Position numbers and translations under genes: made by a program
Assembly: GCF_024171925.1 (NCBI RefSeq)
Contig: NZ_JAMTCO010000010.1
Span: 1-64,000 of the forward strand
DNA: 64,000 bases
Origin: Actinokineospora diospyrosa
GTDB taxonomy: Bacteria > Actinomycetota > Actinomycetes > Mycobacteriales > Pseudonocardiaceae
Reading direction: 5' to 3'
The notes under the pieces: generated by a model
The model's database searches: none
Seen by the model: only the letters and a program-made list of their open reading frames with translations
What the model was told of the DNA's origin: nothing
Shown here: one piece after another, positions 8,078 through 55,640 of the stretch
Layout: each line of letters begins with the position of its first letter
How positions within the stretch are numbered: the first letter of the stretch is position 1

Positions 8078-8834
8078 CACAAGATCGGGTTGAGCTGAGC
8101 AGCCCCCGCTTGCCGACGGAACGGGCGCGCTGAAGGCCAGCCTGTGGACAACTCGGCGGGCAGGTCTCTTGACGGCCGCTTCCGCGAGCGGCGGCGGCCC
8201 GGCGTTTCGTGAGCGCTTGCGTTCGGGCGCGAGATCAAACCGCAATGAGCAGCCCCCAATACACAGCCTACCGGCGAGGGCGGACGGAACGGGCGGTCCG
8301 AGGAGCGGCCTGTGGACAACTCGGCGGATAGGCAGACGCCGCTCCCGTGCGAGGAGCGGAGTTCGGCGTTTTGTGGGTGCTTGAGGTCCGCAGGCGAGAT
8401 CGAACTGGGCTGAGCAGCCCGATGTACGGCCTAGCGGCGGGGCGGGCGGTTCAAGATCGAACTGCAGCGAGCAGCCCCCAGTACACAGCTTACCGAGGAG
8501 AGGCGACAGAACGAGGGGCTTGACGGGTGGGCTGTGGACAACTCGGCGAAACAAGGCGACCGCCGCTCCTGTGTGAGGAGCGGCGGTCGAGGTTCGCGGG
8601 CGGTTCAAGATCAAATGTGGTGAGCAGCCCCCGATATACAGCTTACCGAGCGGGGCGGACGGGATGGGGGCTCGGCGGGGTGGGCTGTGGATAACTCGGC
8701 GGGAAGTGGGGCGGGCAGGGAGTGCCCGGTTGTCCACAACGCCAGTGGTTGTCCACGGTCGGGCTCGCGGGCTCGAGGCCAGGCTGCCGAACCTGGGAGG
8801 ATCGATTCGGGGGCTGCTCAAGGCGATCTTGGTC
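8078..8834. repeat. Intergenic array of six core + DnaA-box units
   Basis: Gene-free gap between convergent greA and thiolase. Core motifs (AGCCCCC) begin at 8101, 8251, 8415, 8473 and 8626 (+ orientation) and 8815 (reverse). DnaA-box-like 9-mers lie at 8143, 8311, 8533, 8686 (TGTGGATAA, the complement of TTATCCACA), 8730 (TTGTCCACA) and 8749 (TTGTCCACG). Core-to-box distances are 42, 60, 60, 60 and, for the reverse unit, 58; the unit at 8415 is degenerate and has no box. Open frames here are by-products of the repeats. Confidence 0.85.
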
Positions 8835-10053
8835 AGCTGAGCCGCTCCAGGACCATGGCCATGCCCTGGCCGCCGCCGACGCACATGGTTTCCAGGCCGA
8901 ACTGCTTGTCGTGCCACTGCAGGGAATTGATCAGGGTGGTGGCGATGCGGGCGCCGGTCATGCCGAAGGGGTGGCCGACGGCGATGGCGCCGCCGTTGAC
9001 GTTGAGCCGGTCCTCGTCGACGCCGAGTTCGCGGGCGGAGGGGATGACCTGGGCGGCGAAGGCCTCGTTGATCTCGACCAGGTCGATGTCGGCGATGGAC
9101 AGCCCCGCCCCGGCCAGTGCCCGCCGGGACGCCTCGACCGGGCCGAGGCCCATGATCTCCGGGGACAGGCCGGAGACGCCGGTGGACACGATGCGGGCCA
9201 GCGGGGTCAGGCCGAGCTCGGCGGCCTTGCGGTCGGACATGATCACCAGGGCCGCCGCGCCGTCGTTGAGCGGGCAGCAGTTGCCCGCGGTGACCCGGCC
9301 GTCGGGGCGGAAGACCGGCTGCAGGGTCGCGGTCTTCTCGTAGGTCACACCAGCGCGCGGGCCGTCGTCGGTGTCGACCACGCGGCCGTCGGGCAGGGTG
9401 ACCGGGGTGATCTCGCGGGCCCAGAAGCCCGCCTCGATCGCCGCCTCGGCGCGGTTCTGCGAGCGGACGCCGAAGTGGTCCATCTCCTCGCGGGTGATGC
9501 CCTTGGCCAGCGCCAGGTTCTCCGCGGTCTGGCCCATCGCGATGTAGGCGTTGGGGACGCGGCCGTCGGCGCGCGGGTCGTGCCACTCCCCCGCCCCGGC
9601 CGCGGCGACCTCGGCGGTGCGCGCCTCGGCCTCGGCGAAGATCGGGTTGTGCGTGTCCGGCCAGGAGTCGGAACTGCCCTTGGCGAAGCGCGAGACCGCC
9701 TCGACGCCAGCGGAGATGAAGACCTCGCCCTCGCCAGCCTTGATCGCGTGCAGCGCCATCCGGGTGGTCTGCAGCGAGGAGGCGCAGTAGCGGGTCACCG
9801 TGCAGCCGGGCAGGAAGTCGTAGCCGAGCAGGACCGAGACGATGCGGCCCATGTTGTTGCCCTGCTCGCCGCCGGGCAGGCCGCAGCCGAGCATGAGGTC
9901 GTCGATCTCGGTGGGGTCGAGCGCGGGCACCCGGTCGAGGGCGGCGCGGACCATCTGCGCGGTCAGGTCGTCCGGGCGGATGTCGACCAGTGACCCCTTG
10001 CCCGCGCGCCCGATCGGCGACCGGACGGCGGAGACGATGACTGCCTCGGGCAT
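8833..10053 (-). CDS. Acetyl-CoA C-acyltransferase (thiolase, FadA-type)
   Basis: Thiolase of 406 aa, cleaving 3-ketoacyl-CoA with CoA in the last step of fatty-acid beta-oxidation. The nucleophile is C90 in TRYCASS. The C-terminal active site is visible as NEAFAAQ, the catalytic His in AVGHPFGMTGAR, and the second Cys in ETMCVGGGQGMA. Length and motifs are complete. ATG at 10053, with the purine-rich GAAGGAG just upstream. The order next to an SGNH esterase and cbs matches mycobacterial fadA3-Rv1075c-cbs. Degradative rather than biosynthetic thiolase is the likelier choice. The stop falls at the edge of a repeat unit. Confidence 0.92.
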   Translation of the reverse strand: MPEAVIVSAVRSPIGRAGKGSLVDIRPDDLTAQMVRAALDRVPALDPTEIDDLMLGCGLPGGEQGNNMGRIVSVLLGYDFLPGCTVTRYCASSLQTTRMALHAIKAGEGEVFISAGVEAVSRFAKGSSDSWPDTHNPIFAEAEARTAEVAAAGAGEWHDPRADGRVPNAYIAMGQTAENLALAKGITREEMDHFGVRSQNRAEAAIEAGFWAREITPVTLPDGRVVDTDDGPRAGVTYEKTATLQPVFRPDGRVTAGNCCPLNDGAAALVIMSDRKAAELGLTPLARIVSTGVSGLSPEIMGLGPVEASRRALAGAGLSIADIDLVEINEAFAAQVIPSARELGVDEDRLNVNGGAIAVGHPFGMTGARIATTLINSLQWHDKQFGLETMCVGGGQGMAMVLERLS

Positions 10054-10155
10054 GGCGGGTACTCCTTCGCGGTGGACACCAACTCGACACCGCTGAGGCT
10101 ACGCCGAACTACCCGCCGGTAACCCACCCGTGGAGCCACGCTGCTCAGCCGGGTG

Positions 10156-10983
10156 TCACCGCACTGTGGCACATCCGGCGGGCCGCGCACTCCCCCACAG
10201 ACCTGCCGCTGCGCAGAGTGGGGCGAGGATCACCCCCGCGGCCAGCGCGTAGCCCGCGCCGTTGGGGTGGAACCGGTCGGTGCTGAACAGCTCGTCCGGC
10301 CGGGTGGCGAAGTGCCGCGACAGCAGCGTCAGCGGGACGACCGCGGCACCGCTGCCCACCAGGGCGCGCGCCTGCGCCCGGCCGAGCGCCAGGCTCCAGC
10401 GCTGCGCGAGGGAGCGCAGCGGCTGCGGGATGGGCCGGACCGAGCCCAGGTCGGGGCAGGTGCCGACGACGACCGAGGTGCCCGCCGCGACCAGCCGCCG
10501 GACCTGCTCGGCGAGGAGTTCGGCGCACTCGGCGACCCCGCGCCGGGCGGTGACGTCGTTGCCGCCGACCATGACCAGCGCGACGCGGGGCGGGGCTATC
10601 AAAGCGCGGTCGACTTGGCGGCCGAGGTCGGAGCTGCGGGAGCCGCTGATGGCGTAGGTCGTCAACTGGACCGGCAGGCCTGCCTCCTCGGCGAGGCCGC
10701 GCGCGAGCTGCACGCCCGGGAGCCAGTCCGGGGCCTCGGCACCTAGTCCTGCCGCGCTCGAATCACCGAAGACTCCGAAGGTGAGGCCGCCGGATGCCGC
10801 GATAGGCCCGGTGCCATCGGGCAGGTAGGTCCCGTCAGCGTTGAACGGCAGGTCGCGGGGAGCCCCGATGATGCTGCGGGCCTGCCGGGATTGTGACTGT
10901 AAGAGGGTGTAGGCAGCGCCGGACAGGCCGCCCACGGAGCCAACGGCGACCGCGGCCACTCGAAGTCCTCGTATCCACAACAT
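10156..10983 (-). CDS. Exported SGNH/GDSL-family hydrolase
   Basis: Esterase-like hydrolase of 275 aa. The N-terminus carries a signal peptide or anchor (LRVAAVAVGSVGGLSGAAY). SGNH blocks are present: block I GDSSAAGLG with the catalytic Ser, the glycine block near TYAISGSRSSD, block III VGGNDV with the oxyanion Asn, and block V STDRFHPNGAGY with catalytic Asp and His. ATG at 10983, with AAGGGGGG upstream. Substrate unknown; acyl esters of cell-envelope glycans are a reasonable inference. Divergent from cbs over 165 bp, the same order as Rv1075c and cbs in mycobacteria. Confidence 0.88.
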   Translation of the reverse strand: MLWIRGLRVAAVAVGSVGGLSGAAYTLLQSQSRQARSIIGAPRDLPFNADGTYLPDGTGPIAASGGLTFGVFGDSSAAGLGAEAPDWLPGVQLARGLAEEAGLPVQLTTYAISGSRSSDLGRQVDRALIAPPRVALVMVGGNDVTARRGVAECAELLAEQVRRLVAAGTSVVVGTCPDLGSVRPIPQPLRSLAQRWSLALGRAQARALVGSGAAVVPLTLLSRHFATRPDELFSTDRFHPNGAGYALAAGVILAPLCAAAGLWGSARPAGCATVR

Positions 10984-11148
10984 CGCCTGCCCCCCTTCGA
11001 CCAAAGGTGACTGTCCTAGACCTATCGCCACCTCGGACCTCCTCTTTACCAAACGCGCCGAATACTTCGCCCGGACTTGCCCCCGGCTACGCTCCAGGTG
11101 CAGGTCAACGACGCGACCCCTACACGCGACCCCACGAAGGAGCCCTCG

Positions 11149-12528
11149 GTGGAGTACGTCGAGCACATCATCGATCTCGTCGGTGACACGCCTCTGGTGA
11201 AGCTGAACTCCCTGGCCGAAGGCTTGGCACCGACGGTCTTGGCCAAGGTCGAGTACTTCAACCCGGGCGGCAGCGTCAAAGACCGGATCGCGCTGCGCAT
11301 GGTGGAGGCGGCTGAGGCGTCCGGCGAGTTGCGGCCGGGCGGCACGATCGTCGAGCCGACCTCGGGCAACACCGGCGTCGGCCTTGCCTTGGTGGCCCAG
11401 CGCAAGGGCTACAAGTGCGTCTTCGTCTGCCCGGACAAGGTCAGCGAAGACAAGCGCAACGTTCTTAAGGCTTACGGCGCCGAGGTAGTCGTATGCCCGA
11501 CCGCTGTGGCACCGGAGCACCCGGACTCTTACTACAACGTCTCCGATCGACTCGTGCGCGAGATCGAGGGGGCGTGGAAGCCGAACCAGTACTCCAACCC
11601 CGAGAACCCGGAGAGCCACTACCGCTCGACCGGGCCGGAGTTGTGGCGGCAGACCGAGGGCAAGATCACGCACTTCGTCGCGGGCGTCGGCACCGGCGGC
11701 ACGATCTCGGGCACCGGCCGGTACCTCAAGGAGATCTCGAACGGCAAAGTTCAGGTCATCGGCGCCGACCCGGAAGGCTCTGTTTACTCGGGTGGCACCG
11801 GAAGGCCCTATTTGGTCGAGGGTGTCGGCGAGGACTTCTGGCCGGATGCCTACGACCGCACTGTCGCTGACGAGATCATCGCGGTGACCGACGCTGAGTC
11901 CTTTGAGATCACCCGCAGGTTGGCTCGCGAAGAGGGCCTGTTGGTCGGCGGCTCGTGCGGCATGGCAGCGGCAGCAGCGCTCCGGTTGGCTAAGAGGCTC
12001 GGACCGGACGACGTTGTCGTAGTGCTCCTGCCGGACGGCGGTCGCGGCTACCTGTCGAAGGTCTTCAACGACTCGTGGATGGCCCAGTACGGGTTCCTCC
12101 CGCCTGAGCACTCCGGCGCCACGGTCGGGGATGTGCTGCGGCGTAAGAGCGCGTCGGGGAACACCATCCCGGACTTCGTGCACGCCCACCCGACCGAGAC
12201 CGTCGCGGACGCCGTGGCCATCTTGCGCGAGTTCGGCGTGAGCCAGATGCCGGTCGTCAACGCTGAGCCGCCCGTCATGGCCGCCGAGGTCGTAGGCGCG
12301 GTCAACGAGCGCGACCTGCTCGACGCCCTGTTCACCGGCAAGGCCGCCTTGGCCGACCGGCTCGACCACCACATGTCCGGCCCTCTGCCCACGATCGGCG
12401 CTGGTGAGCAGGTGTCCGCGGCCATGAAGGCGCTGACCGACGCCGACGGGGCACTCGTTCTTGTTGACGGCAAGCCCGCGGGGGTAGTTACTAGGCAAGA
12501 TCTCCTGGGCTTCCTGGCAGGCAGGTAG
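11149..12528 (+). CDS. cbs: Cystathionine beta-synthase
   Basis: PLP enzyme of 459 aa condensing serine (or O-acetylserine) with homocysteine to cystathionine, the first step of transsulfuration. The fold-type-II domain has the PLP lysine in NPGGSVKDR (K44), the phosphate loop GTGGTISG and the substrate loop PTSGNTG. Two C-terminal CBS domains follow from about residue 325 (TVGDVLRRKSA). The GTG at 11149 aligns with family starts and has GAAGGAG 7 bp upstream. With metB downstream it forms a conserved sulfur-amino-acid locus. The CBS pair probably senses a nucleotide or SAM; actinobacterial forms lack a heme domain. Confidence 0.94.
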   Translation: MEYVEHIIDLVGDTPLVKLNSLAEGLAPTVLAKVEYFNPGGSVKDRIALRMVEAAEASGELRPGGTIVEPTSGNTGVGLALVAQRKGYKCVFVCPDKVSEDKRNVLKAYGAEVVVCPTAVAPEHPDSYYNVSDRLVREIEGAWKPNQYSNPENPESHYRSTGPELWRQTEGKITHFVAGVGTGGTISGTGRYLKEISNGKVQVIGADPEGSVYSGGTGRPYLVEGVGEDFWPDAYDRTVADEIIAVTDAESFEITRRLAREEGLLVGGSCGMAAAAALRLAKRLGPDDVVVVLLPDGGRGYLSKVFNDSWMAQYGFLPPEHSGATVGDVLRRKSASGNTIPDFVHAHPTETVADAVAILREFGVSQMPVVNAEPPVMAAEVVGAVNERDLLDALFTGKAALADRLDHHMSGPLPTIGAGEQVSAAMKALTDADGALVLVDGKPAGVVTRQDLLGFLAGR

Positions 12529-12647
12529 CGCCATATGGTCACCCAGCGAGGCACGAACTACACCCAGATAGCGCATCAGATAGCGTTACCCGCAGTGTTA
12601 TCCGCGTTGCTAGCTGACACACCAGGTCAAAAGGGGTGGGAAACCCA

Positions 12648-13901
12648 ATGAGTGCTCCCCAACCGCCGAACCAGCCATGGCAGGGCGGTCAGCCCCAGCA
12701 GTGGCCTGGTCAACCCGGCCAGGACCAGCCATATGGCCAGCAGCCGGGTGGTTACCCGGCCCAGCAGCCGCACTACGCGCCGCCGCCCGGTGACAACACC
12801 GGCGCCGACGGCGTGGAACGGACCCAGGCCATCCGCCCCGGTCAGAACCCCCCGGGAACCGAGGACGACGGCGTCGACCGCACCCAGGTGGTGCGGCCCG
12901 GTCAGGGTGACGCCACCCAGATGGTGCCGCCGGGCTCGGTCCCGCAGTCCCCGCCGTACACCCCGCCGCCCAGCGCGGCGGACACCGCCTCGCCCCCTGG
13001 CGGGTTCGGTCAGCCCTACGGCCAGCAGCAGCAGTACGGCCAGCCCGGTGGTTACGGTCAGCAACAGCAGCCCGGCTACGGCCAGCAGCCCGGCGGTTAC
13101 CCGCAGCAGGGTGGTTTCGCGCAGCAGCCCGGCCTCGGCGGTCCGCCGCGCGCGGCCGGGCAGCCCGCCAACACCGGCATGATCGCGCTGATCGTGCTCG
13201 GCGTCGTCGCGCTGCTCGGCCTGATCACGCTGATCATGGCGATCTCGCTCGTCTCCGACATCTCGTCGGTCAGCAGCGCGTGCTCGGACCTCAAGGGCAG
13301 CGCCTTCGCGGTCGACCTGGCGTGCCCGACCGGCGTCAACGTGGTGTTCTCGCTGCTGCAACTGGTGGGCGCGGGCGCGGCCATCGCGGGCGCGGTACTG
13401 CTGGCGCTGAAGAAGAACCTCAACATCGCCCACCTGCTCGTCGCGGGCGGCGGCGGTGGCGTGCTGCTCGGTTCGCTGCTCAACGGCATCACCTTCACCT
13501 TCGGCGGCAGCATCACCACGTCGTTCGTGTTCGGTCTGATCATCGCGGGTGCCGGTGCGCTGGCGTTCTTCCCGCAGACCAAGGACTACCTGCTGGGCAG
13601 CTCGCCGCTCAGCTCGCTCAGCGGCGGCGGTGGCCCCGGCGGTCCCGGCGCGCCGGGCGGGTTCGGCCAGCCGCAGCAGCCCGGTTTCGGGCAGCCGCAG
13701 CAGCCGCAGCAGCCCCAGCAGGGCTACGGCCAGCCTTACGGCCAGCAGCAGCCGCCGCAGGGGTACGGCCAGCCGCCGCAGACCCCGCCGCCCGGCTTCC
13801 CGCCGCCGCAGCAGGGTTACGGGCAGCAGCCCCCGCCGCCCCAGCAGGGTGGTTACGGGCAGCAGCCCCCCGGCCAGCAGCCGCCGCAGCAGTGGAGCTA
13901 G
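12648..13901 (+). CDS. Proline/glutamine-rich membrane protein (Pra-like) with phosphothreonine-type motifs
   Basis: Protein of 417 aa. The first 170 residues are P/Q/G-rich with GYGQQ repeats and three TQ motifs: ERTQAIRPG, DRTQVVRPG and DATQMVPPG. Four membrane segments follow between about residues 178 and 310 (for example GMIALIVLGVVALLGLITL). The C-terminal 110 residues are again GYGQPQQ-rich. It sits between cbs and metB, where mycobacteria carry the proline-rich antigen Pra. ATG at 12648 with GGGGTGGG upstream. The TQ motifs fit Ser/Thr-kinase targets and FHA ligands (large hydrophobic at +3). Function unknown; a septal or polar envelope role is inference. A terminator hairpin follows. 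Confidence 0.8.
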   Translation: MSAPQPPNQPWQGGQPQQWPGQPGQDQPYGQQPGGYPAQQPHYAPPPGDNTGADGVERTQAIRPGQNPPGTEDDGVDRTQVVRPGQGDATQMVPPGSVPQSPPYTPPPSAADTASPPGGFGQPYGQQQQYGQPGGYGQQQQPGYGQQPGGYPQQGGFAQQPGLGGPPRAAGQPANTGMIALIVLGVVALLGLITLIMAISLVSDISSVSSACSDLKGSAFAVDLACPTGVNVVFSLLQLVGAGAAIAGAVLLALKKNLNIAHLLVAGGGGGVLLGSLLNGITFTFGGSITTSFVFGLIIAGAGALAFFPQTKDYLLGSSPLSSLSGGGGPGGPGAPGGFGQPQQPGFGQPQQPQQPQQGYGQPYGQQQPPQGYGQPPQTPPPGFPPPQQGYGQQPPPPQQGGYGQQPPGQQPPQQWS

Positions 13902-13932
13902 TGGCGCCACCGGTTGAACTGACGAAGTGATT

Positions 13933-13963
13933 GATGGGCCCCGGCAACCCGCCGGGGCCCATC
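13933..13963. terminator. Terminator hairpin after the Pra-like gene
   Basis: Perfect 13-bp stem (GATGGGCCCCGGC and its complement) with a 5-nt loop, no T-run, a form common in actinomycetes, 32 bp after the stop. Confidence 0.75.
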
Positions 13964-14004
13964 CGCGTCTCAGGGGTCGTTACCGCAGACGCGAGGGGGA
14001 GCAG

Positions 14005-14642: not shown

Positions 14643-14648
14643 GGGAGC

Positions 14649-15851: not shown

Positions 15852-15858
15852 TCCTATT

Positions 15859-18129: not shown

Positions 18130-18500
18130 CGTTGGACAAGATCAAACCGGGTTGAGCAGCCCCCGATATACAGCTTACCGGGGAGAGCCGCCTGAACGCG
18201 GCGAGTGAACGTGGGGCTGTGGACAACTCGTGCTGGTTGGGCGACGGCTGGGGCTGGGCGCCAGCGGTTGGGCGCCGTCCGCTGCTGAGGCGCGGGCGAC
18301 TGAAGGCCGTTCGCGGCGGGGAGCGGTGGCGGGTGGAGGTCGTTGTGGCCGGGGCGGGATTTGCTTGGTGGAGGGGTGTTGTGCCGCGATGAGCAAGATC
18401 AAATCGGGTTGAGCAGCCCCCGATATACAGCTTACCGGGGAGAGTCGGTTGAACGCGGCGAGTGAGGGTGGGGGCTGTGGACAACTCGGGGTGGCTGGGG
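18130..18500 (+). repeat. Two tandem core + DnaA-box units
   Basis: Gap between convergent lrp and terpene synthase. Cores begin at 18158 and 18415, nearly identical through AGCCCCCGATATACAGC and the following TTACCGGGGAGAG. Each has GATC 18 bp upstream and TGTGGACAA downstream at 18218 (60 bp) and 18476 (61 bp). No gene in the gap. Confidence 0.85.
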
Positions 18501-18548: not shown

Positions 18549-19631
18549 TCAGCGGCTGGGGTTGGGGAGGGGGTGGTGGACCGTGCCGAGGCGGTGGAGG
18601 GTGCGTTGTTCGGCGGTCGGGTTGCCCGCGAGGTCGTCGGCGACGGTGTGGTTGTCGCCGTGGTAGCGGCTGCTCTCGCGGGCGTGCCGGAGGTTGCCGG
18701 TGATCATGTGACCGACCTCGACGAGGAAGCGGGCCAGGTCGTCGCGGTGGCGCAGGGGGCCGTTGGCGACCTTCGCGCGGGTGGCGATGAAGCGCTGCTC
18801 GGTGGCCACCGCGCGGGCGGCGATCGCGTCGAGCGCCTCCTGCAGCGGCACCCCTTGTCCTAAGAGGACCCACACCGCGTTGCTGGTCTCACCCTCTTCT
18901 AGTTCCTTGGCGAACGAGTAAAGGTCGTTGACGAGGATCCAGTGGTCGATGGCGAGCGTGCAGGCGCGGCGCACCAACGGGTCCTCGGTGGCGATCCCGT
19001 CGAGGTCGATGCCCAGCGCCCACTCCGCGACGGTGAGGATCCAGAACCCGTAGGCGTTCACCCGGCGGGTGGAGCCGAGGTAGGCGTCGAGGTCGGTGAG
19101 GTCCTCGACGGTGTTCTCGTTGGCGTTGTTGCGGACCACCGCCCGACCCGCCTCGACCATCCGCCGCCCCACCGAATCACCGGTGGGCAGCAGCATGGCG
19201 TGCACCTCGCGCACGAGTCCGACCAGCGGGGGCGCACCGCCACCGGCGGCTTCGAGCGCGGCGCACAACTGGTCGGCGAGCCGGGCGCGGTCGAGCGGGT
19301 CGCGCAGCCACGGCGCGGAGAAGGCGTCGTCGACCAGGGCGGCGGTGTTCATCCACAGCTGCTGGGCGAAGAACCGGTCCGGCCGGGTGTGCGGCAGGCA
19401 GAGCGCGCCCCAGCGGTGCAGGTCCTGCCGGAGGTAGCGGTGGGTGATCGGACTGTCCTGTTCGGACTCGCCGAAGTAGGCCGCCAGGTGGGGGCGCAGC
19501 CACCCGAGGACCCGCGGCGCGGTGGCCGCGTAGTCGGGGTGCAGCGCGAGCGGGCAGTGGGTCGGCAGTGCGGGCAGCTGATAGGTCATTCCATAACGAA
19601 GACTGCCGCCTGCATGGGGAGAATTTTTCAA
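18549..19631 (-). CDS. Class I terpene synthase (sesquiterpene cyclase-like)
   Basis: Terpene cyclase of 360 aa (346 from the internal ATG at 19589). It ionises a prenyl diphosphate and cyclises the cation. Numbered from that ATG, the metal motif is an atypical DDAFS at 87-91, lacking the usual third acidic residue, and the NSE triad NDLYSFAKE (221-229) is perfect. The C-terminal SSRYHGD provides the diphosphate-sensing Arg-Tyr pair. The TTG at 19631 is chosen because GGAGGAG lies 5 nt upstream, while the ATG has no SD; the ATG remains possible. Divergent from a prenyl synthase that probably makes its substrate. The upstream DNA is notably AT-rich. The product cannot be predicted. Confidence 0.88.
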   Translation of the reverse strand: MKNSPHAGGSLRYGMTYQLPALPTHCPLALHPDYAATAPRVLGWLRPHLAAYFGESEQDSPITHRYLRQDLHRWGALCLPHTRPDRFFAQQLWMNTAALVDDAFSAPWLRDPLDRARLADQLCAALEAAGGGAPPLVGLVREVHAMLLPTGDSVGRRMVEAGRAVVRNNANENTVEDLTDLDAYLGSTRRVNAYGFWILTVAEWALGIDLDGIATEDPLVRRACTLAIDHWILVNDLYSFAKELEEGETSNAVWVLLGQGVPLQEALDAIAARAVATEQRFIATRAKVANGPLRHRDDLARFLVEVGHMITGNLRHARESSRYHGDNHTVADDLAGNPTAEQRTLHRLGTVHHPLPNPSR

Positions 19632-20030
19632 ACCAACTCCTCCATTTTATAGTTCAAGTGTAAACGCGGTGGATTGTTTCGCTCCATCTCGCTCATGCTG
19701 ATGCCGCAGCGGTTCACCTGTGCGGACGCACGCGCGTCACCGTGTGCGGCCGCCGGTTGGGCCACTCCGGTGATCTTGGCCGGGGAACCGGGTCGACGTC
19801 GAACCGGTAAGTGACCGCTGCTTCCTTAGCCTGCCCTTCGGCGGACCCACGCCACCCGAGTGTGAACCGCTTTCACCTGCGCGGCGGCGGGCTCCCTACG
19901 GTGTGCGGCAACTGTTTGGGCCATTCGGGGCATATCAGCCCGGAGATCACCCGAAAAGATCACTGGAGGCCGTGCAGCTGCACGGGATCATTCAGGTACG
20001 CGATCGGACGTCGACGGGGAAGCGCGAGCC
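19632..20030. promoter_or_regulatory. Divergent terpene-locus control region with a 159-bp-phased direct repeat
   Basis: No gene. An imperfect repeat of about 68 bp occurs at 19707-19774 and 19867-19934. TTCACCTG, GTGTGCGGC and TTGGGCCA all recur at exactly 159 bp offset, without indels. The cyclase side (19635-19675) is AT-rich and holds CTATAAAAT on the minus strand, a possible -10. The repeats are candidate sites for a regulator or duplicated promoters. Confidence 0.5.
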
Positions 20031-21038
20031 ATGAGCCCGGGTGTCGAGCAGGTGCTGGCCGAGAGCCGGGTGGCCGCGCTGCCTGCGCTGCGTGCGGCCG
20101 TGGAGTCGATGCCGTACGCCTTGAGGCGAATAGCGTGCTACCACTTTGGCTGGCTGGACGCCTTCGGCAGCCCCATCCAGGCGGGCAGCGGCAAGATGGT
20201 CCGCTCCGCGCTGACCCTGCTCTCCGCCCGCGCCGTCGGCGGCGACCCCGCCACCGCGGTCCCCGCGGCCGTGGCGGTGGAGCTGGTGCACAACTTCTCC
20301 CTGCTCCACGACGACATCATGGACGGCGACCGAACCCGCAGGCACCGGGGCTCGGCCTGGTCGGTGTTCGGCGTCCTAGCCGCACTGCTGGCTGGCGATG
20401 CCTTGTGGGCCTTGGCTTTGCGCGTCCTCGCCGGCGCACCCCACGCCGACCGCTCCCTCCCCATCCTCACCGAAGCCCTGTGGTGGCTGATGGACGGCCA
20501 AAGCGCCGACGCCGACTTCCCCCACCGCACCGAAGTCACCGTCGCCGAGTGCGAGGCGATGGCCGCCGGGAAGACCGGGTCGATCATGGGGTGCGCGTGC
20601 GCGCTGGGCGCGTTGCTCGGTGGCGGGAGCGCGCGCCAGATCGCGGCGCTGCGCGAGATGGGGGAACAACTGGGACTGGCCTTCCAACTCGTGGATGACC
20701 TACTGGGAATCTGGGGCGATCCCGAGGCGATGGGGAAACCGGGCGGGGATCTGGTGAACCGCAAGAAGTCCTTGCCGGTGGTGGCCGCGTTGAACTCCGG
20801 AACGCCTGCGGGGAACGAGTTGGCGGCGTTCTATCGCGCTGAGCGCGAATTGACGGAGCTGGAACAGGTGCGGGCGGCGGAGCTGATCCAGTCGGCGGGC
20901 GGCCGGGATTGGGCGCAGACGGAGGCGGAGCGGAGGTTGGCCCGGGCGGTGGTGTTGCTCGCGCACGCGGACCCACAACCGGTGGCGGCGGAGGCGTTGT
21001 CGTTGTTGGCGGCGCATTTGACGCATCGGGATCGTTGA
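20031..21038 (+). CDS. Polyprenyl diphosphate synthase
   Basis: Trans-isoprenyl diphosphate synthase of 335 aa, extending an allylic diphosphate with IPP units. The first aspartate-rich motif is LLHDDIMDGD with RTRRHRG after it; the second is FQLVDDLLGIWGD followed by GGDLVNRKKSLP. The basic IPP-binding part is GSGKMVRSALTLL. All catalytic residues are present. ATG at 20031 with a weak purine-rich upstream. Divergent from the terpene cyclase, so it probably feeds it FPP or GGPP. The chain length is uncertain. The downstream gap is filled with repeats and DnaA-box-like arrays. Confidence 0.9.
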   Translation: MSPGVEQVLAESRVAALPALRAAVESMPYALRRIACYHFGWLDAFGSPIQAGSGKMVRSALTLLSARAVGGDPATAVPAAVAVELVHNFSLLHDDIMDGDRTRRHRGSAWSVFGVLAALLAGDALWALALRVLAGAPHADRSLPILTEALWWLMDGQSADADFPHRTEVTVAECEAMAAGKTGSIMGCACALGALLGGGSARQIAALREMGEQLGLAFQLVDDLLGIWGDPEAMGKPGGDLVNRKKSLPVVAALNSGTPAGNELAAFYRAERELTELEQVRAAELIQSAGGRDWAQTEAERRLARAVVLLAHADPQPVAAEALSLLAAHLTHRDR

Positions 21039-21059: not shown

Positions 21060-21145
21060 GTGTCCGCAGGGTGGTTGTCCACAAGCTGGTTGTCCACAGG
21101 GTGGTCGTCCACGGGGTGGTCGTCCACGGGGTGGTCGTCCACAAC
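21060..21145 (+). repeat. Tandem 15-bp DnaA-box array
   Basis: Five 15-bp units without indels at 21071-21145, with 9-mers starting at 21075, 21090, 21105, 21120 and 21135 (TTGTCCACA twice, TCGTCCACG twice, TCGTCCACA). A sixth, degenerate, unit (GTGTCCGCA) is at 21060, in the same register. Confidence 0.9.
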
Positions 21146-21153
21146 GGGTTTGG

Positions 21154-21420
21154 TTTTCCACAAGGTGTTTGGTTGTCCACAGGGCGTGGTCGTCGCTGCT
21201 GATGTGTCGGTTCTTGGCGGTAGGCTGTGTATCGGGGGCTCTTGCGGTAGATGATCTTGCGGGGCTGGTTGTTGTTTGTCCACAACGGTTCTGGTTGTCC
21301 ACAGGGCGTTGGTTGCTGGCCCCGGTTTGTCGGTGCTGCGCGGTAGGCTGTGTATTTGGGGGCTTTCGATCAGGTTGATCTTGGCGTAGGCCGGGGTTGG
21401 GAGTGCGGGGCAAGGGATTC
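21154..21420 (-). repeat. Two reverse core units with paired DnaA boxes
   Basis: Reverse-orientation cores end at 21240 and 21364, read as TAGGCTGTGTATCGGGGGCT and a close variant. Paired boxes lie at 21154/21173 and 21276/21295, each pair 19 bp apart. Core-to-box distance is 59 and 61 bp. The stretch 21342-21420 is almost identical to 54933-55010. Confidence 0.85.
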
Positions 21421-21500
21421 GGGCCTCCGCCTTCGGCTCCGGTGGACGGCCTCGTCGCCTGGCGGCGAGCTCGGCGCCCGATCCGCGACAATGCGAAAAG

Positions 21501-21643
21501 CTCGATGGGGCGAACTTGTTTTGCGCGGGGCCCCTACAACACCCGACGCAGAACCGCAAAGCAGGGGCCGAAAAGCATGGCCCTGTCCGCTACCGACGCT
21601 ACGGGTGTCGTCCCCCCACGCAAAACAAGTCCGCCCCATCGAG
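21501..21643. repeat. 143-bp palindromic element, copy 1
   Basis: Outer arms start CTCGATGGGGCGAACTTG and end CAAGTCCGCCCCATCGAG. An inner hairpin GGGGCC/GGCCCT lies near 21561-21585. Related to 44844-44985 (inverted orientation) and 55123-55264 (same orientation). Confidence 0.85.
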
Positions 21644-21654
21644 CCGGCCTGGCA

Positions 21655-44830: not shown

Positions 44831-44843
44831 CTGGTGCCAACTG

Positions 44844-44985
44844 CTCGATGGGGTGGACCTGTTTTGTGTGGGGGACGACACCCGTAGCGTTTCCGCGCGG
44901 CAGGGCCAGTCTTTTCGGCCCCTGCTTTGCGGTTCTGCCACGGGTGTCGTAGGGGCCCCGCGCAAAACAGGTCCACCCCATCGAG
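44844..44985. repeat. 142-bp palindromic element, copy 2 (inverted)
   Basis: Arms CTCGATGGGGTGGACCTG and CAGGTCCACCCCATCGAG are perfectly complementary. An inner hairpin surrounds GGCCAGTCTTTTCGGCC. Copy 1 and copy 3 read in the opposite orientation. Confidence 0.85.
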
Positions 44986-45079
44986 CAAAGCTCGAAAATC
45001 GCGGATCGGGCGCCGAGTTCGCCGCTAGGCGACGAGGCCGTCCACCGGAGCCGAAGGCGGAGGCCCGAATCCCTTGCCC

Positions 45080-45320
45080 CGCATCCCCAACCACGGCCTA
45101 CGTCAAGATCAACCTGATCAAAAGCCCCCAAATACACAGCTTAGCGCGCAGCACCAACAAACCGGGAGCGGCGAACGGAGCCTGTGGACAACCGCAGCCA
45201 TTGTGGACAACCAAGCAACTCGTCACGGCAACAAGCGACCCAACCGCCCCACATCCAAGATCAACTGAACCAAGAGCCCCCGATATACAGCCTACCGAGA
45301 GAGACCGACACAACGGCAGC
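45080..45320 (+). repeat. Two core + DnaA-box units
   Basis: Cores start at 45123 and 45275. Boxes TGTGGACAA at 45183/45202 and TGTGGACAG/TGTGGACAA at 45335/45354; core-to-box 60 bp in both and pairs exactly 19 bp apart. Confidence 0.85.
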
Positions 45321-45334
45321 AGCAAGCAGCAGCC

Positions 45335-45527
45335 TGTGGACAGCAGAACGCGTTGTGGACAACCCGAACCTGCGGACAACCAGAGCCTGCGGATACCCAA
45401 GGCGTTGTGGACAACCACAGGCGTTGTAGGCACCAGAGCGCCTGCCGACAACCACAGGCGTTGCAGACAACCACAGAAGTTGTGGGCAACCAGAGCGCCT
45501 GCGAACAACCACAGGCGTTGTAGACAA
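45335..45527 (+). repeat. Iteron-like array of 11 DnaA-box-like 9-mers, 17-19-bp period
   Basis: Starts at 45335, 45354, 45371, 45388, 45406, 45425, 45443, 45462, 45481, 45500 and 45519. The unit reads about GTTGTGGACAACCACAGGC. The left boxes are close to TGTGGACAA, the right ones degenerate (TGCAGACAA, TGTAGACAA). It is not CRISPR: there are no unique spacers of 30 bp or more. Confidence 0.85.
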
Positions 45528-45560
45528 CCACGGGCGCGAAGACAACCTGACCAAGGACAG

Positions 45561-49408: not shown

Positions 49409-49412
49409 GGCG

Positions 49413-50366: not shown

Positions 50367-51300
50367 AGCGGATCCTTGGGTCGAGGACGGCATAGAGCAG
50401 GTCCACCAGCAAGTTCGACAACAGGTAGACCATCACCAGCAGCGTGACGACGCCGGTGACCGTTACCCCTTCCTTGCCGAGGATGCCGTCGTAGACGAGG
50501 CTGCCGATGCCTTTGATGTCGAAGATGCCCTCGGTGACGATGGCGCCGCCCATGAGGGCGCCCAGGTCGGTACCGAGGAACGTCACCACGGGGATGGCGG
50601 AGTTGCGCAGCAGGTGCACGCCGACCACGCGCCGCTGGCGCAGGCCCTTGGCGGTCGCCGTGCGGACGTAGTCCGCGCGCTTGTTCTCCGCGATGGAGGT
50701 CCGGGTCAACCTGGTCACGTAGGCCATGGACAGGCTGCCGAGGACGAATCCGGGCACGATGAGGTGCTCCCACGGCGCTGGTGACGCCGAGACCGTGGTC
50801 TTGATCCACTTGAGCTCGAACCCGAGCGTGATCTGCAGGACGAACCCGGTGACGAACACCGGCAGCGAGATCAGGAACAGGGTGGACACCAGCACGAGGT
50901 TGTCCAGGAACCCGCGGCCGCGCAGACCGGTGAGCACGCCAGCGGCCAGGCCGATGACGGCCTCGATGGCGAGCGCGACGAGGGCGAGGCGGATGGTGTT
51001 CGGGTAGGCCTCGCCGATGAGCTCACCGACGTCGAGGCCGCGGAAGGTCTCGCCGAAGTTGCCCTGCAGGACGTTGAGCATGTACTTGCCGTACTGCACG
51101 ACCAGCGGGTCGTCGAAGTTGAACTTCTCGACCATGGCCGCGACGTAGGAGTCGGGGCAGGGGCGGTCGCCGCACTTGCCGGAGAACGGGTCCCCGGGCA
51201 GGCTCCAGACCAGCCAGTAGATCAGGAAGGTGGTCCCGATGAACACCGGGATCAGCTGTAGCAGTCGTCGGAGGACGTAGCGTCCCATTGTCTCTCCCAA
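50359..51300 (-). CDS. Peptide ABC transporter permease (DppB-like)
   Basis: 313 aa, six membrane segments. It starts MGRYVLRRLLQLIPVFIGTT, the classic DppB opening; the EAA loop is in RTATAKGLRQRRVVGVHLLR. Partner of DppC. The start lies just after a strong hairpin in the gap to the binding-protein gene. Confidence 0.92.
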   Translation of the reverse strand: MGETMGRYVLRRLLQLIPVFIGTTFLIYWLVWSLPGDPFSGKCGDRPCPDSYVAAMVEKFNFDDPLVVQYGKYMLNVLQGNFGETFRGLDVGELIGEAYPNTIRLALVALAIEAVIGLAAGVLTGLRGRGFLDNLVLVSTLFLISLPVFVTGFVLQITLGFELKWIKTTVSASPAPWEHLIVPGFVLGSLSMAYVTRLTRTSIAENKRADYVRTATAKGLRQRRVVGVHLLRNSAIPVVTFLGTDLGALMGGAIVTEGIFDIKGIGSLVYDGILGKEGVTVTGVVTLLVMVYLLSNLLVDLLYAVLDPRIRYD

Positions 51301-51306
51301 CCTGAC

Positions 51307-51347
51307 TCCGGGCCGGGGGCGCGGGATCGCCGCACCCCCGGCCCGGA
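51307..51347 (-). terminator. Intra-operon hairpin between dppA and dppB
   Basis: 13-bp perfect stem (TCCGGGCCGGGGG with its complement) and a 15-nt loop, 16 bp after the binding-protein stop. Likely attenuates transcription or protects the dppA mRNA, so more binding protein than permease is made. Confidence 0.7.
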
Positions 51348-51363
51348 GTGGAACTGGTGCGAA

Positions 51364-53034
51364 CTACTTCTTCTTGACCGTCACGTTGGTCAGGTCCAGT
51401 TCACGCAGCGAGGTGAGGCGGGCACCGTCGAGCCGCTCGGACCAGCCGTACTGGGCGGTCTGGTTCCACAGCGGGATGACCGGGAAGTCCTCGGCCAGGA
51501 TGCGCTCGCCCTCCTGGTACAGCTTGTTCGCCTCGTCGACGCTGGGCGCCGAGTCCGCGCGACCCAGGATCTCGTCGAGCTTGGGGTTGCTGTACTCACC
51601 GTCGTTGGAGGACGCGCCGGTGCGGTAGAGCTGGTTGAGGAAGTTCTCGATCGACGGGTAGTCGGCGATCCAGCCGGTGCGGAAGATCGCGTTCATCTGC
51701 CGAGCGTTGATCTTCTGCCGAGTCTCGGCGAAGGTCGGGATGGGCTCGTAGAGGCACTCGATGCCCAGCGCGTTCTTGATGCTGTTGCAGGTCGCGGTCA
51801 TCCAGTCCTTGTGCCCACCGTCAGCGTTGGTGGAGAACTTGACGGTGCCCTTGAAGCCGGACTTGGCCAGGTACTCCTTGGCCTTCTCCGGGTTGTAGGT
51901 GCACAGGTCGCCGCACTGGCCCTTGGCGTAGCCGGGGACAGCCGGGTTGACCCAGCCGTCGGCCGGGATGCGGGTGCCGTCGAAGATCTTGTCGACGATC
52001 TCCTGGCGGTTGATCGCCAGCGACAGCGCCTTGCGCAGGTCGACGTTGGCGTACGTCGGGTCGTAGTACGGGAAGGTCAGGGTCTGGTTGCCCATGTACG
52101 GGGTCGACCCGTTGCGGCCCTCGAGGTCCTGCTTGTACTTGCCACCGGCGATGCCGGTCGGCGGGATGGTGTCCAGGAAGTCCAGGTCACCACCGACGAT
52201 GGCGGTGTAGGCGGCCTCGTTCGACTCGAAGATCTTGAACGTGAGGTCCTTGAACTTCGGCTTGTCGTCACCGGCGTAGTCGTCGTTGCGGGTCAGCACG
52301 ATCTCGGCGTTGGGCTTGCGCGAGACGAACTTGAACGGCCCGTTGCCGACCGGCTTGGCCTCGAACGCCTTCTGGTCGCTGAAGAACGAGTCCGGCAGCG
52401 GGAAGAACGGGTTGTAGCCCAGCTTCAGCGGGAAGACCGCGAACGGGGCGTTCAGGGTGACCTCGAAGGTGGAGTCGTCGACGACCTTGAGGCCGGACAT
52501 CTCCTTCGCGGTCGGCTCCGGGGCCTTCTGCGGGCCAGCGGTGCCGTCCGGGTCCTCGGTGTGCACGTCCTTGTAGCCCTGGACCTGCTCGAAGAAGCTC
52601 GCGCCCTGCTGCCCGTTGGGGCTGGCGGCGGTGAAGTTCCAGGCGTCGACGAAGTTCTTGGCCTTCACCGGGGTGCCGTCGTGGAACTTCCAGCCGGACT
52701 TCAGCTTGATCGTGTAGACCTTGGAGTCGGTCGTGTCGATCTTCTCGGCCACGGCGTTCTTCGACTCGCCGGTCACCGGGTCGTACCTGGTCAGACCGGT
52801 GAACAGGGAGCGGATGACCTTGCTGCCGCCGCTCTCGGTGGTGTTACCGGGGATGAGCGGGTTCTCCGGCTCGGTCCCGAAGGCCGACAGGGCGCCGTCC
52901 GGGTCACTGGCGCCAGTGCTGCCGCCGGTGTTGCCGTTGCTGCCGCTGTCTTCGCTGCCACCGCCACAACCCGCGATTGTGAGCGCGAGTGCAAGCGGCA
53001 TCACCGATGCCGCTATCCAGCGTGGTTTGCGCAT
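51364..53034 (-). CDS. Peptide ABC transporter substrate-binding lipoprotein (DppA/OppA-like)
   Basis: 556 aa, family 5 solute-binding protein. Lipobox LTIAGC, with lipidated Cys23 after the signal peptide, then a G/S-rich linker. Family landmarks include VIRSLFTGLTRYDPVTGE, KLKSGWKFHDGTPVKAKNF and ALSLAINRQEI. It captures extracellular peptides for the importer. ATG at 53034, with GGGAGGAG upstream. The 277-bp upstream gap (53035-53311) is AT-richer and has GTCACAAAC/GTCACAATC repeats. Confidence 0.93.
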   Translation of the reverse strand: MRKPRWIAASVMPLALALTIAGCGGGSEDSGSNGNTGGSTGASDPDGALSAFGTEPENPLIPGNTTESGGSKVIRSLFTGLTRYDPVTGESKNAVAEKIDTTDSKVYTIKLKSGWKFHDGTPVKAKNFVDAWNFTAASPNGQQGASFFEQVQGYKDVHTEDPDGTAGPQKAPEPTAKEMSGLKVVDDSTFEVTLNAPFAVFPLKLGYNPFFPLPDSFFSDQKAFEAKPVGNGPFKFVSRKPNAEIVLTRNDDYAGDDKPKFKDLTFKIFESNEAAYTAIVGGDLDFLDTIPPTGIAGGKYKQDLEGRNGSTPYMGNQTLTFPYYDPTYANVDLRKALSLAINRQEIVDKIFDGTRIPADGWVNPAVPGYAKGQCGDLCTYNPEKAKEYLAKSGFKGTVKFSTNADGGHKDWMTATCNSIKNALGIECLYEPIPTFAETRQKINARQMNAIFRTGWIADYPSIENFLNQLYRTGASSNDGEYSNPKLDEILGRADSAPSVDEANKLYQEGERILAEDFPVIPLWNQTAQYGWSERLDGARLTSLRELDLTNVTVKKK

Positions 53035-53311
53035 GGGTCTCCTCCCAGGCTAGTTCGACGTGCTCAGGCTTGGTACGCCAACGGCAGTCGTCGATCGCGG
53101 AGCGGAACCGCCCGCTCCGAAAGTGAGTGGAAGTTAACCGGAGGGGTGAGTCAGCAGGCGATCGACGACGTCACAAACGAGTCACAATCAGACGTAGTTC
53201 ATCCGTTTGGGGGATGGTCTCATCGGAGAGTGACCGGTAACCGAACAGTTTGTCGTTGGCGGTTCTGTGTCAGGTCATTGTTGTGACTGCTATGCGATGT
53301 ATTGGCGCTTG

Positions 53312-54283
53312 TCACCGCCGGTCATCGACCTTAGCGAGCGACAGCGCGATGCCGTCCAGAATGTCGTGCTCGCTGACCAGCAGGCTTGTGATCTCCGTCT
53401 CCAGCGCGACGCGCCTGGCCAGGGCCCTGACGACCACGGCACCACCGCCGATCACGTCCACCCGGCCGGGGTGCATGGCCCCGATGGCGGCGCGTTCGCG
53501 GTGACCCGTGGTGAGCAGGCGGGCGGTGATGGACTCGATCCCGTCGAACGGGATCCGGCTCAGGTGGATCCGGTCCGGGTCGTACTCGGACAGGCCCAGG
53601 TGGATCGCCGCCAGCGTGGTCACGGTGCCCGCCACGCCGACCCACGTGCGCGCCTTGGCCACCGGGACCTGCGCGAACGCCTCGTCGAGCACCCGCTCGG
53701 CGACGGCCTGCGCCTCGGCGACCTCGGCCGGTGTCGGCGGGTCGGACAGCAGCGCGCGCTCGGTCAGCCGGACGCACCCGACGTCCACGGATTTAGCGCC
53801 GTCGAAGCGGGCTTCGGCGCCGTCCCAGGTCCCCAGCACCAGCTCGGTCGACCCACCCCCGACATCGGCCACCAGATACGGACCGTCATCGGGGTCCAGC
53901 TCGCCGACGGCGCCCAGGAAGGACAGCTCGGCCTCCTCGGCCCCGCTGATGACCTCGGCCTCCACCCCCAGCACCGCGGCGGTCATGGCGAAGAACTCAG
54001 CCCGGTTCGCGGCGTCCCTGGTGGCCGAGGTGGCCACCATCCGCACCCGCTCGACCCCCTTGCGGCGCAGCACCCCGACGTAGTCGACCAGGGCAGCCCT
54101 GGTCCGCTCAATGGCCTCCGCCGCCAGCACCCCGGTCGCGTCAACGCCCTGGCCGAGCCGCACGACCCGCATCTCGCGGTGCAGATCCCGCAACGCGGTC
54201 GTCCCGTCGTGCCCGGTGCTCGCCTCGGCGACCAGCAGGCGGATCGAGTTCGTACCGCAGTCGATGGCAGCGACTCTGCTCAT
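53312..54283 (-). CDS. Ppx/GppA family exopolyphosphatase
   Basis: 323 aa. Actin-like ATPase fold phosphatase: AAIDCGTNSIRLLVAE (P-loop-like phosphate motif), MVATSATRDAANRAEF, ISGAEEAELSFLGA and VADVGGGSTELVLG. It splits polyphosphate or pppGpp. The ATG at 54283 is preferred over the GTG at 54289, since TAGGCT ends 7 nt upstream. A shorter form than GppA, as in actinobacterial Ppx1. Confidence 0.9.
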   Translation of the reverse strand: MSRVAAIDCGTNSIRLLVAEASTGHDGTTALRDLHREMRVVRLGQGVDATGVLAAEAIERTRAALVDYVGVLRRKGVERVRMVATSATRDAANRAEFFAMTAAVLGVEAEVISGAEEAELSFLGAVGELDPDDGPYLVADVGGGSTELVLGTWDGAEARFDGAKSVDVGCVRLTERALLSDPPTPAEVAEAQAVAERVLDEAFAQVPVAKARTWVGVAGTVTTLAAIHLGLSEYDPDRIHLSRIPFDGIESITARLLTTGHRERAAIGAMHPGRVDVIGGGAVVVRALARRVALETEITSLLVSEHDILDGIALSLAKVDDRR

Positions 54284-54290
54284 GCCCACG

Positions 54291-54296
54291 AGCCTA
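54291..54296 (-). promoter_or_regulatory. -10 box TAGGCT of a leaderless transcript
   Basis: On the minus strand TAGGCT ends 7 nt before the ATG at 54283. Confidence 0.55.
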
Positions 54297-54720
54297 TGCT
54301 TCGGTTTTTTAAAGCGTCGTGTCGGGCCCGGGTGATCAGACTTTCGTCGGGTGCATTCGCGGGGGACGCGATTCGCTCGGGGGTGGTGGATTCACCGGTT
54401 CGGGGAAGTGGGGGCACGGGGTGTCAATGGGTTGACGGGGAGTGGCGCATTTACCGTTTGCCATTTGTTGAGGATTTGAGGTTGCTTGGCGCGTTGGGGT
54501 GGTTGCTGTGCGTAGTGGGGGGCTGATTGTTGGCGGGTGGGGTTGGCGGTGGTTGTTGGCGTGAGTGGTGGTTAGTGGGGTGGTTGTTGACGGGGGCTGT
54601 TTGCGGGGTAGTTGTTCGCGGGGTGGGGGCCTTGAGGGTGGGCGGCTGGTGAGTCCGAGGGGTTGTTGACCCTGGGGCGCGGGTCGAACTCGGGTGGTGC
54701 GGGTTGTCGAGCTTGGGTGC
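54297..54720. other. Gene-free flank of the repeat locus
   Basis: Low-complexity, G/T-rich DNA on the + strand (GGGTGGTTGT-like words) with no start, motif or protein pattern worth calling. It may be degraded repeat DNA. Confidence 0.5.
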
Positions 54721-54734
54721 GCGGAGTTGTCCTC

Positions 54735-55010
54735 GGAGCTGCCCACAAGGGCTGGTGCTGTCCACAGGGAGCGGTCGCTGCTCCCGATTTGTCGGGCCTC
54801 CTCGGTAGGCTGTATATCGGGGGCGCTTGTGGCAGATGATCTTGCGGGAGTGGTTGTGGTGGATGGGTTGTCCACAACCGATCTGAGTGTCCACAGGGCG
54901 TTGGTCGCCGCTCCCGCTGTGTCGGCGTGCGTCGGTAGGCTGTGTATTTGGGGGCTTTCGATCAGGTTGATCTTGGCGTAGGCCGGGGTTGGTGTTGCGG
55001 GGCAAGGGAT
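54735..55010 (-). repeat. Two reverse core units with paired DnaA boxes
   Basis: Cores end at 54825 and 54956. Boxes at 54739/54758 and 54868/54887, exactly 19 bp within each pair; core-to-box 59 and 61 bp. Confidence 0.85.
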
Positions 55011-55122
55011 TCGGTGGCTCCGGGGGTCGGCCTCGTCGCCTGGCGGCGAGCTCGGCGACCCGCATCGGACGCCTCGTTGCCTAGCGGCAACCTCGGGCCC
55101 GATCCGCGATTTTCGAGCTTTG

Positions 55123-55264
55123 CTCGATGCGGTGGACCTGTTTTGCGCGGGGCCCCTACGACACCCGTGGCAGAACCGCAAAGCAGGGGCCCAAAAGCAG
55201 GCCCTGCCGCTGAACGACGCTACGGCTGCCGTCCCCCCACACAAAACAGGTCCACCCCATCGAG
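55123..55264. repeat. 142-bp palindromic element, copy 3
   Basis: Arms begin CTCGATGCGGTGGACCTG and end CAGGTCCACCCCATCGAG, with an inner hairpin near GCAGGGGCCCAAAAGCAGG. Flanked by the 69-70-bp repeat downstream and by the core unit upstream. Confidence 0.85.
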
Positions 55265-55289
55265 CACTTGGCACCAGCGACTCCGACGG

Positions 55290-55500
55290 CCGCCGGGCTG
55301 GGTTGGCAGGGCAGCCGAGAGCGGGCTGGGCTGGCACCGGATCTTCCGAGTGTCCGGGGCTGATCAGGTGGGCTGAGGCGGACCTGACGGGGAGCGCGGG
55401 CTGGCACCGCCGGGTCCGAGTGTTCAGGGGCTGAGTGGGTGGGCTGGGCGGACCTGACGGCAGCTGAGTTGGCACCGACGGGTCCGAGTGTCCAGGGGGC
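55290..55500. repeat. 69-70-bp-period degenerate repeat (copy of the window start)
   Basis: GCGGACCTG recurs at 55378 and 55448. The stretch 55299-55390 matches the first 105 bases of the window at most positions. Confidence 0.75.
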
Positions 55501-55524
55501 TGGGCCGTGTGGGCTGACGGGTGG

Positions 55525-55640
55525 TTGTCCACAACGTGTTCCGTTGTCCACAGGCCCTGATCGCTGCCCCGGTTCTGTCGGGATCAGTCAATAGGCTGCA
55601 TATCGGGGGCTCTTGCGGCAGATGATCTTGCGTGGGATGG
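55525..55640 (-). repeat. Reverse core unit with paired DnaA boxes
   Basis: Core ends at 55611; boxes TTGTCCACA at 55525 and 55544 (19 bp apart); core-to-box 59 bp. The AAGATC complement follows as GATGATCTT. Confidence 0.85.

Follow-up and report, generated by a model that had tools for sequence, protein, structure and literature searches.

What does a short repeat do that joins a likely DnaA site to an apparent transcription start about 43 bases away? The question is raised by a 64-kb stretch of contig 10 of an Actinokineospora genome (G000; Pseudonocardiaceae; 8.11 Mb in 29 contigs), referred to below as the window. It carries copies of a repeat unit in which a short core is accompanied, at a kept distance, by a 9-mer of the TGTGGACAA type, which we take from the consensus to be the actinobacterial DnaA box. 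A promoter role is the candidate function that we infer for this unit, and the best reading of the sequences is a cassette of DnaA box and promoter-like block that would be held by selection and amplified lineage by lineage. Our search of the open-licence literature returned no description of this repeat family, and no paper on Streptomyces DnaA-box clusters that affect initiation, a comparison made in the first-pass annotation of the window.

Copies in the window and in the genome

The first-pass annotation had listed 15 copies, 13 with a box at 58-61 bp, one with a box at 42 bp and one without a box, and we recovered the same set. With up to three mismatches, AGCCCCCGATATACAGC matches the window nine times against 0.05 expected, and AAGATC or GAGATC followed by GCCCCC picks out 13 copies, in which AGCCCCC starts 18-20 bp from the start of AAGATC. 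A box with at most one mismatch starts 59-61 bp from the core start in 12 of these 13 copies and at 42 bp in the remaining one (8101). Two further copies were found by eye: a degenerate one on the minus strand (AGCCCCC at 8809-8815 and box CGTGGACAA at 8749-8757, a distance of 58 bp) and one at 8396-8440 without a box, which shows that decay happens and escapes the profile search. The box word itself (up to one mismatch) occurs 40 times in the window, against 7.0 expected and a maximum of 12 over 100 shuffles. That there is a repeat family with a DnaA-box 9-mer at a kept distance is borne out by these copies and by the spacing counts given below.

Beyond the window we read 1.26 Mb of the genome (contig 1 entire, contig 2 from 1 to 300 kb, contig 10 from 1 to 244 kb, and 20 kb around oriC) with a profile built from 50 core matches, accepting matches at E<1e-4 that covered more than 60 profile positions. 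This yielded 92 copies in 38 arrays which, extrapolated by length, corresponds to about 590 copies genome-wide. The core (up to two mismatches) occurs 160 times in the whole genome against 0 for the reversed pattern, and exact TGTGGACAA 573 times against 31 for the reversed word. Among the 146 exact box words in the 1.26 Mb, 107 lie within units, 8 within 150 bp of one and 31 farther away; called genes contain 13 of the 31 (genes were called with our own codon-usage script, and their ends are approximate). The same 9-mer is also present in the dnaA-dnaN gap, where we presume the oriC region to be; as that region has boxes and no unit, we rejected an oriC-like nature for the units.

Anatomy of the unit

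On the core strand, the unit runs CAAGATC, 12-14 bp, AGCCCCC, 6-8 bp, AGCCTAC, about 39 bp including CCGACA, CCTGTGGACAAC, 8 bp and TTGTGGACAAC. More generally, the layout is one or two DnaA boxes, then 41-44 bp, a TAGNNT hexamer read on the opposite strand, and a G-run 6-9 bp further on. Form A is the first unit of its array and form B comprises the later units; form C has a single box and mostly the core ATATACAG, and form D, on contig 1 at 329-334 kb, has a single box and a GAATCCAG core. A box with at most two mismatches was found in 90 of the 92 copies, with TGTG in 90/90 and G as fifth letter in 89/90. When a second box (up to two mismatches) was sought 15-23 bp on, it lay at 19 bp in all 64 of the 90 copies that have one. 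The hexamer is TAGGCT in 51 copies, TAAGCT in 10, TAGACT in three and TAGCCT in one (the 65 of 92 copies matching the regular expression), and in these 65 CTA (or TTA) starts 42-44 bp before the box.

Constraint is unevenly spread along the unit. Mean pairwise identity among the 25 C and D copies is 0.77 in the core block, 0.52 in the filler, 0.965 in the first box and 1.0 in its TGTGG, and falls to 0.30 at the second-box place and 0.32 in the outer flank. For core block, filler and box the values are 0.965, 0.73 and 0.915 among 23 A copies, and 0.83, 0.64 and 0.905 among 44 B copies. Because the box is part of the profile with which the copies were found, these values carry some bias. The claim that the filler varies while the spacing is kept agrees with these identities and with the loci of relatives.

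In units of eight genomes, the sixth letter of the hexamer is T in 163/164 (49 in our genome, 24 in G010, 22 in G002, 4 in G013, 31 in G006, 9 in G068, 10/11 in G034 and 14 in G016); the patterns used to fetch units selected TAG in most sets and left this last letter free. Letters 4 and 5 vary (TAGGCT, TAGACT, TAGAAT, TAGCAT, TAGCGT). GGGG begins 6-9 nt past the hexamer in 145/163 units, where 5% would be expected by chance, the misses being 5 in our genome, 7 in G002, 1 in G034 and 5 in G016. Excluded from these totals are 17 units of A. terrae and A. globicatena, for which the fetching pattern fixes both hexamer and C-run; with them, the totals would be 180/181 for the final T and 161/180 for GGGG. 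TANNNT lies 41-44 bp from the box for 24/24 boxes at G010 loci, 22/26 in G002 and 38/49 in G006 (chance 1.1%), and the misses, among those listed, are mostly second boxes. Upstream of dnaA, by eye, a box is present with no hexamer at 41-44 bp. The first-pass annotation had measured the fixed distance to the AGCCCCC core. The distance holds; the core gives way as the best anchor, since hexamer and G-run keep the distance better, AGCCCCC being the form that the G-run takes in a few species.

The same geometry in other genomes

The spacing was surveyed in 120 genomes as CTAC-N36..42-TGTGGACAA, with a gap of 66..72 as control. The first-pass annotation had asked whether the distance is conserved genome-wide; our genome has 115 occurrences of the true gap against 3 of the shifted one, and the distance is kept beyond chance. 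In the same genus the corresponding counts are 66/2 in G005, 53/3 in G010, 39/2 in G009, 35/2 in G006, 35/12 in G013, 32/1 in G002, 30/4 in G008, 29/2 in G012, 17/2 in G004 and 9/2 in G003, the last five members having 0-4 for both spacings. Among other genera of the Pseudonocardiaceae, G034 has 53/0, G016 27/0 and G068 25/1, with weaker counts in G024 (9/3), G066 (8/2), G070 (8/4) and G065 (5/1); the rest of the family has at most 4 true and at most 4 shifted, save G069 (2/7), and genomes outside it at most 4. The fixed spacing therefore recurs in relatives from at least three other genera, so that conservation reaches past the species, and the family is larger than first described, with many copies beyond the 15 in the window and several genera.

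The core is far more narrowly distributed. At up to two mismatches, five of the 16 Actinokineospora genomes account for nearly all matches (the 160 of our genome, 48 in G012, 29 in G006, 22 in G005 and 10 in G009), with 0-2 in the remaining ones. When named genomes were searched for a slightly degenerate core, the exact matches all came from A. terrae and A. globicatena (31 stretches; our own genome was possibly not included). In G034, G016 and G068 the filler is quite unlike ours, and the G-run lies within a CCCCC..GGGGGG..CCCC stretch. The next box (up to one mismatch) is found at 19 bp in 14/14 G016 units and 8/9 G068 units, at 18 bp in 8/10 G034 units, and at 18-19 bp in 6/22 G002 and 9/31 G006 units. 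At loci L305-L324 of G013, many boxes are paired inward about 65 bp apart with the G-run block in between, a geometry unlike the rest of the genus.

Placement and turnover

The arrays favour the ends of convergent genes. Convergent gaps hold 23 of the 38, tandem gaps 12 and a divergent gap one, and two are at the edge of the sequence read, while the 611 gaps of at least 50 bp comprise 107 convergent, 340 tandem and 164 divergent ones. The convergent excess (23/36 placed arrays against 107/611 gaps) has a binomial p of 8e-10 when gaps are counted and 9e-6 when bases are, and the divergent scarcity (1/36 against 164/611) one of 2e-4 and 1e-3, respectively. Thirty loci in G016, G034 and G068 divide into 18 convergent, 9 tandem, 2 divergent and 1 unclear. 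Along G006, a single contig, the loci show no departure from an even spread (Kolmogorov-Smirnov p 0.19 for 23 loci, drawn from 33 of 35 places, and 0.75 for 34 loci after adding 15 of 29 core matches). Neither this distribution nor the number of box words, which runs from 66 to 573 within the genus, lends support to the link with replication initiation suggested in the first-pass annotation.

G006 is syntenic with contig 10 across 240 kb, mostly at 85-94% identity, and eight of the nine arrays on that stretch were compared, the ninth (243.8 kb) lying at its edge. Single-box units stand in both genomes in the greA-thiolase gap (8 kb) and in the 18-kb gap, where the G006 core differs and the box is kept. 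At 54.5-55.8 kb and 190.5-191.5 kb, G006 has 8 and 13 bp between aligned blocks, and at the eight sites the two-box form (A/B) is absent from G006. As two of the eight sites are common to both genomes and six are not, part of the family is mobile or amplified. By eye, A. terrae is empty at 18 kb and at greA but carries a unit close to the 21-kb site; A. globicatena is also empty at greA, where G009 has the core and no box. Of 20 relatives, four (G005, G006, G009 and G012) had the end of greA within 1.5 kb, the other 16 being unusable. What synteny at the eight sites shows is turnover of the family between species. The single-box forms seem to be older and to keep their sites, and A and B to be recent invaders, a claim with few sites behind it.

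G006 also has the D cluster, at 7.171-7.175 Mb. On contig 1 of our genome at 329-334 kb (L117:9249-14501), two bidirectional single-box arrays flank a 3-kb segment that is inverted relative to G006, as if recombination between arrays had flipped it.

Type A units are adjoined, in fixed orientation, by a hairpin element that measures about 146-168 bp, has 31-32-bp inverted arms and IS30-type ends, and resembles a miniature inverted-repeat transposable element (MITE). It is a separate module from the DnaA unit: C and D units are without it, and it is also found alone (for example on contig 10 at 212.6 and 217.0 kb). Inverted arms were seen in it and, by eye at three junctions, not in the unit. 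In A. terrae (L080:1-340) an IS30 transposase (NF033563, E 4e-32, above cut-off; no Pfam match) is followed immediately by the MITE end sequence. A 356-bp tract after type A hexamers has 23 full-length copies in the 1.26 Mb, query included; we rejected a long structured RNA there, as the 32-bp-armed hairpin of the tract looks like the IS30-type MITE. Rfam matches to a microRNA family by E-value, below the gathering score, are located on this hairpin.

A putative promoter controlled by DnaA

We tentatively propose that the units are promoter-like cassettes under the control of DnaA, a reading whose chances are somewhat short of even. As far as sequence can tell, they are laid out like a promoter with an upstream activator: the units have what we take to be the actinobacterial box 9-mer and, G013 mostly excepted, a -10-like hexamer in a fixed place. 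From its pattern of variation and the position of the G-run, TAGNNT would be the -10 box and the G-run the start of a short RNA. DnaA at about -53 to -61 (and -72 to -80) would contact RNA polymerase, making a consensus -35 dispensable. The likely effect is local, because the arrays lie mostly at convergent gene ends, where a short transcript that depends on DnaA, or the stalling of polymerase, could separate the read-through of two genes; retention of DnaA on the chromosome would be a by-product. A bolder version, which we consider unlikely, is an ancient class of DnaA-dependent promoters spreading as short repeats, with tens to hundreds of near-identical starts between convergent genes through which the level or state of DnaA would be read out as chromosome-wide short transcripts. 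DnaA is a known transcription factor (PMC8203912). Known DnaA-regulated promoters likewise have a DnaA box upstream of a -10-like hexamer, although those act on genes whereas our units are dispersed repeats and drive no evident gene.

Several results weigh against such a promoter. No constant -35 element was seen by eye in the units, and the second box is absent from all 24 G010 units. The layout is mostly broken in G013, where many boxes lie beyond the G-run and only four units in 20 loci fit the rule, despite a spacing count of 35. The folding energy at predicted RNA starts is no better than that of shuffles in 8/8 stretches (z -1.5 to +1.3; 0.11 to 1.09 for five of these refolded without 3-7 end letters) and does not support an RNA hairpin opening the transcript, and Rfam at gathering score finds one tRNA in the window and nothing in 12 loci. 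Sites at 21, 45, 74 and 120 kb, with 5, 4, 2 and 3 boxes in our genome, have 0 in G006, where one bare core word remains at 74 kb, and arrays are missing from many corresponding sites in relatives. The counts of units are not independent, as copies within one genome share ancestry. Box words range from 66 to 573 within the genus, an almost ninefold difference between congeners that is odd for an essential function. Lastly, the gap between paired boxes is 10 bp here, and E. coli DnaA prefers pairs 2-3 bp apart (PMC11317965).

The last two points also tell against titration, in which boxes across the chromosome would sequester DnaA and govern when initiation occurs, with hexamer and G-run as incidental features. 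The excess of exact box words over the reversed word and the 107/146 boxes inside units would suit it, as would the chromosomal titration of DnaA that PMC12371093 reports in E. coli; yet titration has no need of a fixed distance to TAGNNT and G-run, leaves the geometry unexplained, and finds no unevenness among the G006 loci, and we hold it to be improbable. Better placed, and still unlikely, is a selfish, non-autonomous short interspersed repeat, which would use its boxes and conserved blocks to copy itself and would bring the host nothing. Sites filled in our genome and closed to 8 and 13 bp in G006, the empty 18-kb site of A. terrae, and filler and core that are alike within a genome and different between genera all fit it; PMC3347997 places a DnaA site in the ends of Tn5, and a mobile element using DnaA in that way would account for the turnover, though not for the constraint on the older copies. 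Our genome has no Y1 transposase, however, and the three junctions show by eye neither terminal inverted repeats nor a clear target duplication. No plasmid match (two stretches) or phage match (one stretch) was found. The filler of single-box copies decays while their boxes stay intact, at some sites that G006 shares as well, and dead copies would not behave in this way. Convergent bias and nearly constant geometry could also reflect an architectural site on which DnaA and a second protein, bound to the G-run/TAGNNT block, insulate convergent genes or organise the nucleoid in the absence of transcription; this is very doubtful, since T-A-G-N-N-T variation with a G-run at start-site distance is what a -10 box predicts. 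The promoter, titration and mobile-element readings can be compatible with one another.

Comparison with known systems

datA, DARS1, DARS2 and the DnaA-box clusters outside oriC are single loci. Like our units, they are non-coding and have several DnaA boxes remote from oriC. They differ in having no repeated promoter-like block, whereas the units are multicopy, have one or two boxes in fixed geometry, and turn over between species in place of a single conserved locus with a box cluster. Repetitive extragenic palindromic (REP) sequences, bacterial interspersed mosaic elements and other interspersed bacterial repeats are likewise short, extragenic and multicopy, occur in arrays and often lie near gene 3' ends; here, in contrast, there is no Y1 transposase, DnaA boxes are present, and the spacing is common to genera with different sequence. 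A REP-associated tyrosine transposase system was rejected, with 0 matches to PF01797 (Y1) in our genome and matches in 5/14 control genomes. A phage or plasmid origin was set aside as well, two stretches having no match in plasmids and one none in phages; eight viral stretches match a loose pattern, but without G-run and hexamer (by eye). The outside end of Tn5/IS50 is similar in having a DnaA site inside the end of a mobile element (PMC3347997), and different in that we found no terminal inverted repeats or transposase for our unit.

If DnaA binds and fires these units, a protein that initiates replication would control transcription genome-wide via a repeat family, and many gene ends would be tied to the replication cycle. 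Sister species, with their 66 to 573 box words, offer a natural titration series with which to ask whether DnaA boxes on the chromosome set the timing of initiation outside E. coli. A repeat in which the site of a host initiator and a promoter hexamer stay in register from genus to genus is unusual even if it is selfish.

Features of the window

Table 1. Repeat copies and adjoining hairpin elements in the window
Position	Strand	Feature	Basis
8074..8156	+	Copy with short filler, box 42 bp from core	Profile, core-box distances
8227..8325	+	Copy, single-box type C	Profile, core-box distances
8396..8440	+	Degenerate copy without DnaA box	By eye; absent from profile matches
8447..8546	+	Copy, single-box type C	Profile, core-box distances
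8601..8707	+	Copy, single-box type C, box TGTGGATAA	Profile, core-box distances
8723..8837	-	Degenerate copy that has lost the hexamer; core at 8809-8815, boxes at 8749-8757 and 8730-8738	Two weak profile fragments only
18133..18241	+	Copy, single-box type C; G006 has a unit at this site, A. terrae none	Profile, locus comparison
18388..18489	+	Copy, single-box type C	Profile, core-box distances
21135..21272	-	Copy, two-box type B	Profile, core-box distances
21275..21386	-	Copy, two-box type A, first of array	Profile, core-box distances
21500..21644	.	Hairpin element of the same kind as at 55121 (IS30-type MITE), beside type A copy	
44842..44987	.	Hairpin element of the same kind as at 55121 (IS30-type MITE), beside type A copy	
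45096..45216	+	Copy, two-box type A	Profile, core-box distances
45244..45366	+	Copy, two-box type B; decayed box repeats then to 45.53 kb	Profile, box matches
54736..54859	-	Copy, type B, one box with at most one mismatch	Profile, core-box distances
54866..54979	-	Copy, two-box type A	Profile, core-box distances
55121..55266	.	Hairpin element, 32-bp inverted arms, beside type A copy, taken as IS30-type MITE	
55511..55644	-	Copy, two-box type B	Profile, core-box distances

Runs of decayed DnaA boxes extend outside the regular pair at 45335-45530 and 21065-21180, many at steps of 15-19 bp, and look like an expanding and eroding iteron array. Behind the MITE, at 55280-55520, there are imperfect tandem repeats of about 85 bp (GGCACC..GGGTCCGAGTGTCC), which by eye occur at other loci of the genome too. 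At 18549-21038, a terpene synthase gene (PF19086) adjoins one for a polyprenyl synthase near the family 2 encapsulin cargo model (NF041169, 426 bits against a cut-off of 450), and this is perhaps an encapsulin terpene locus.

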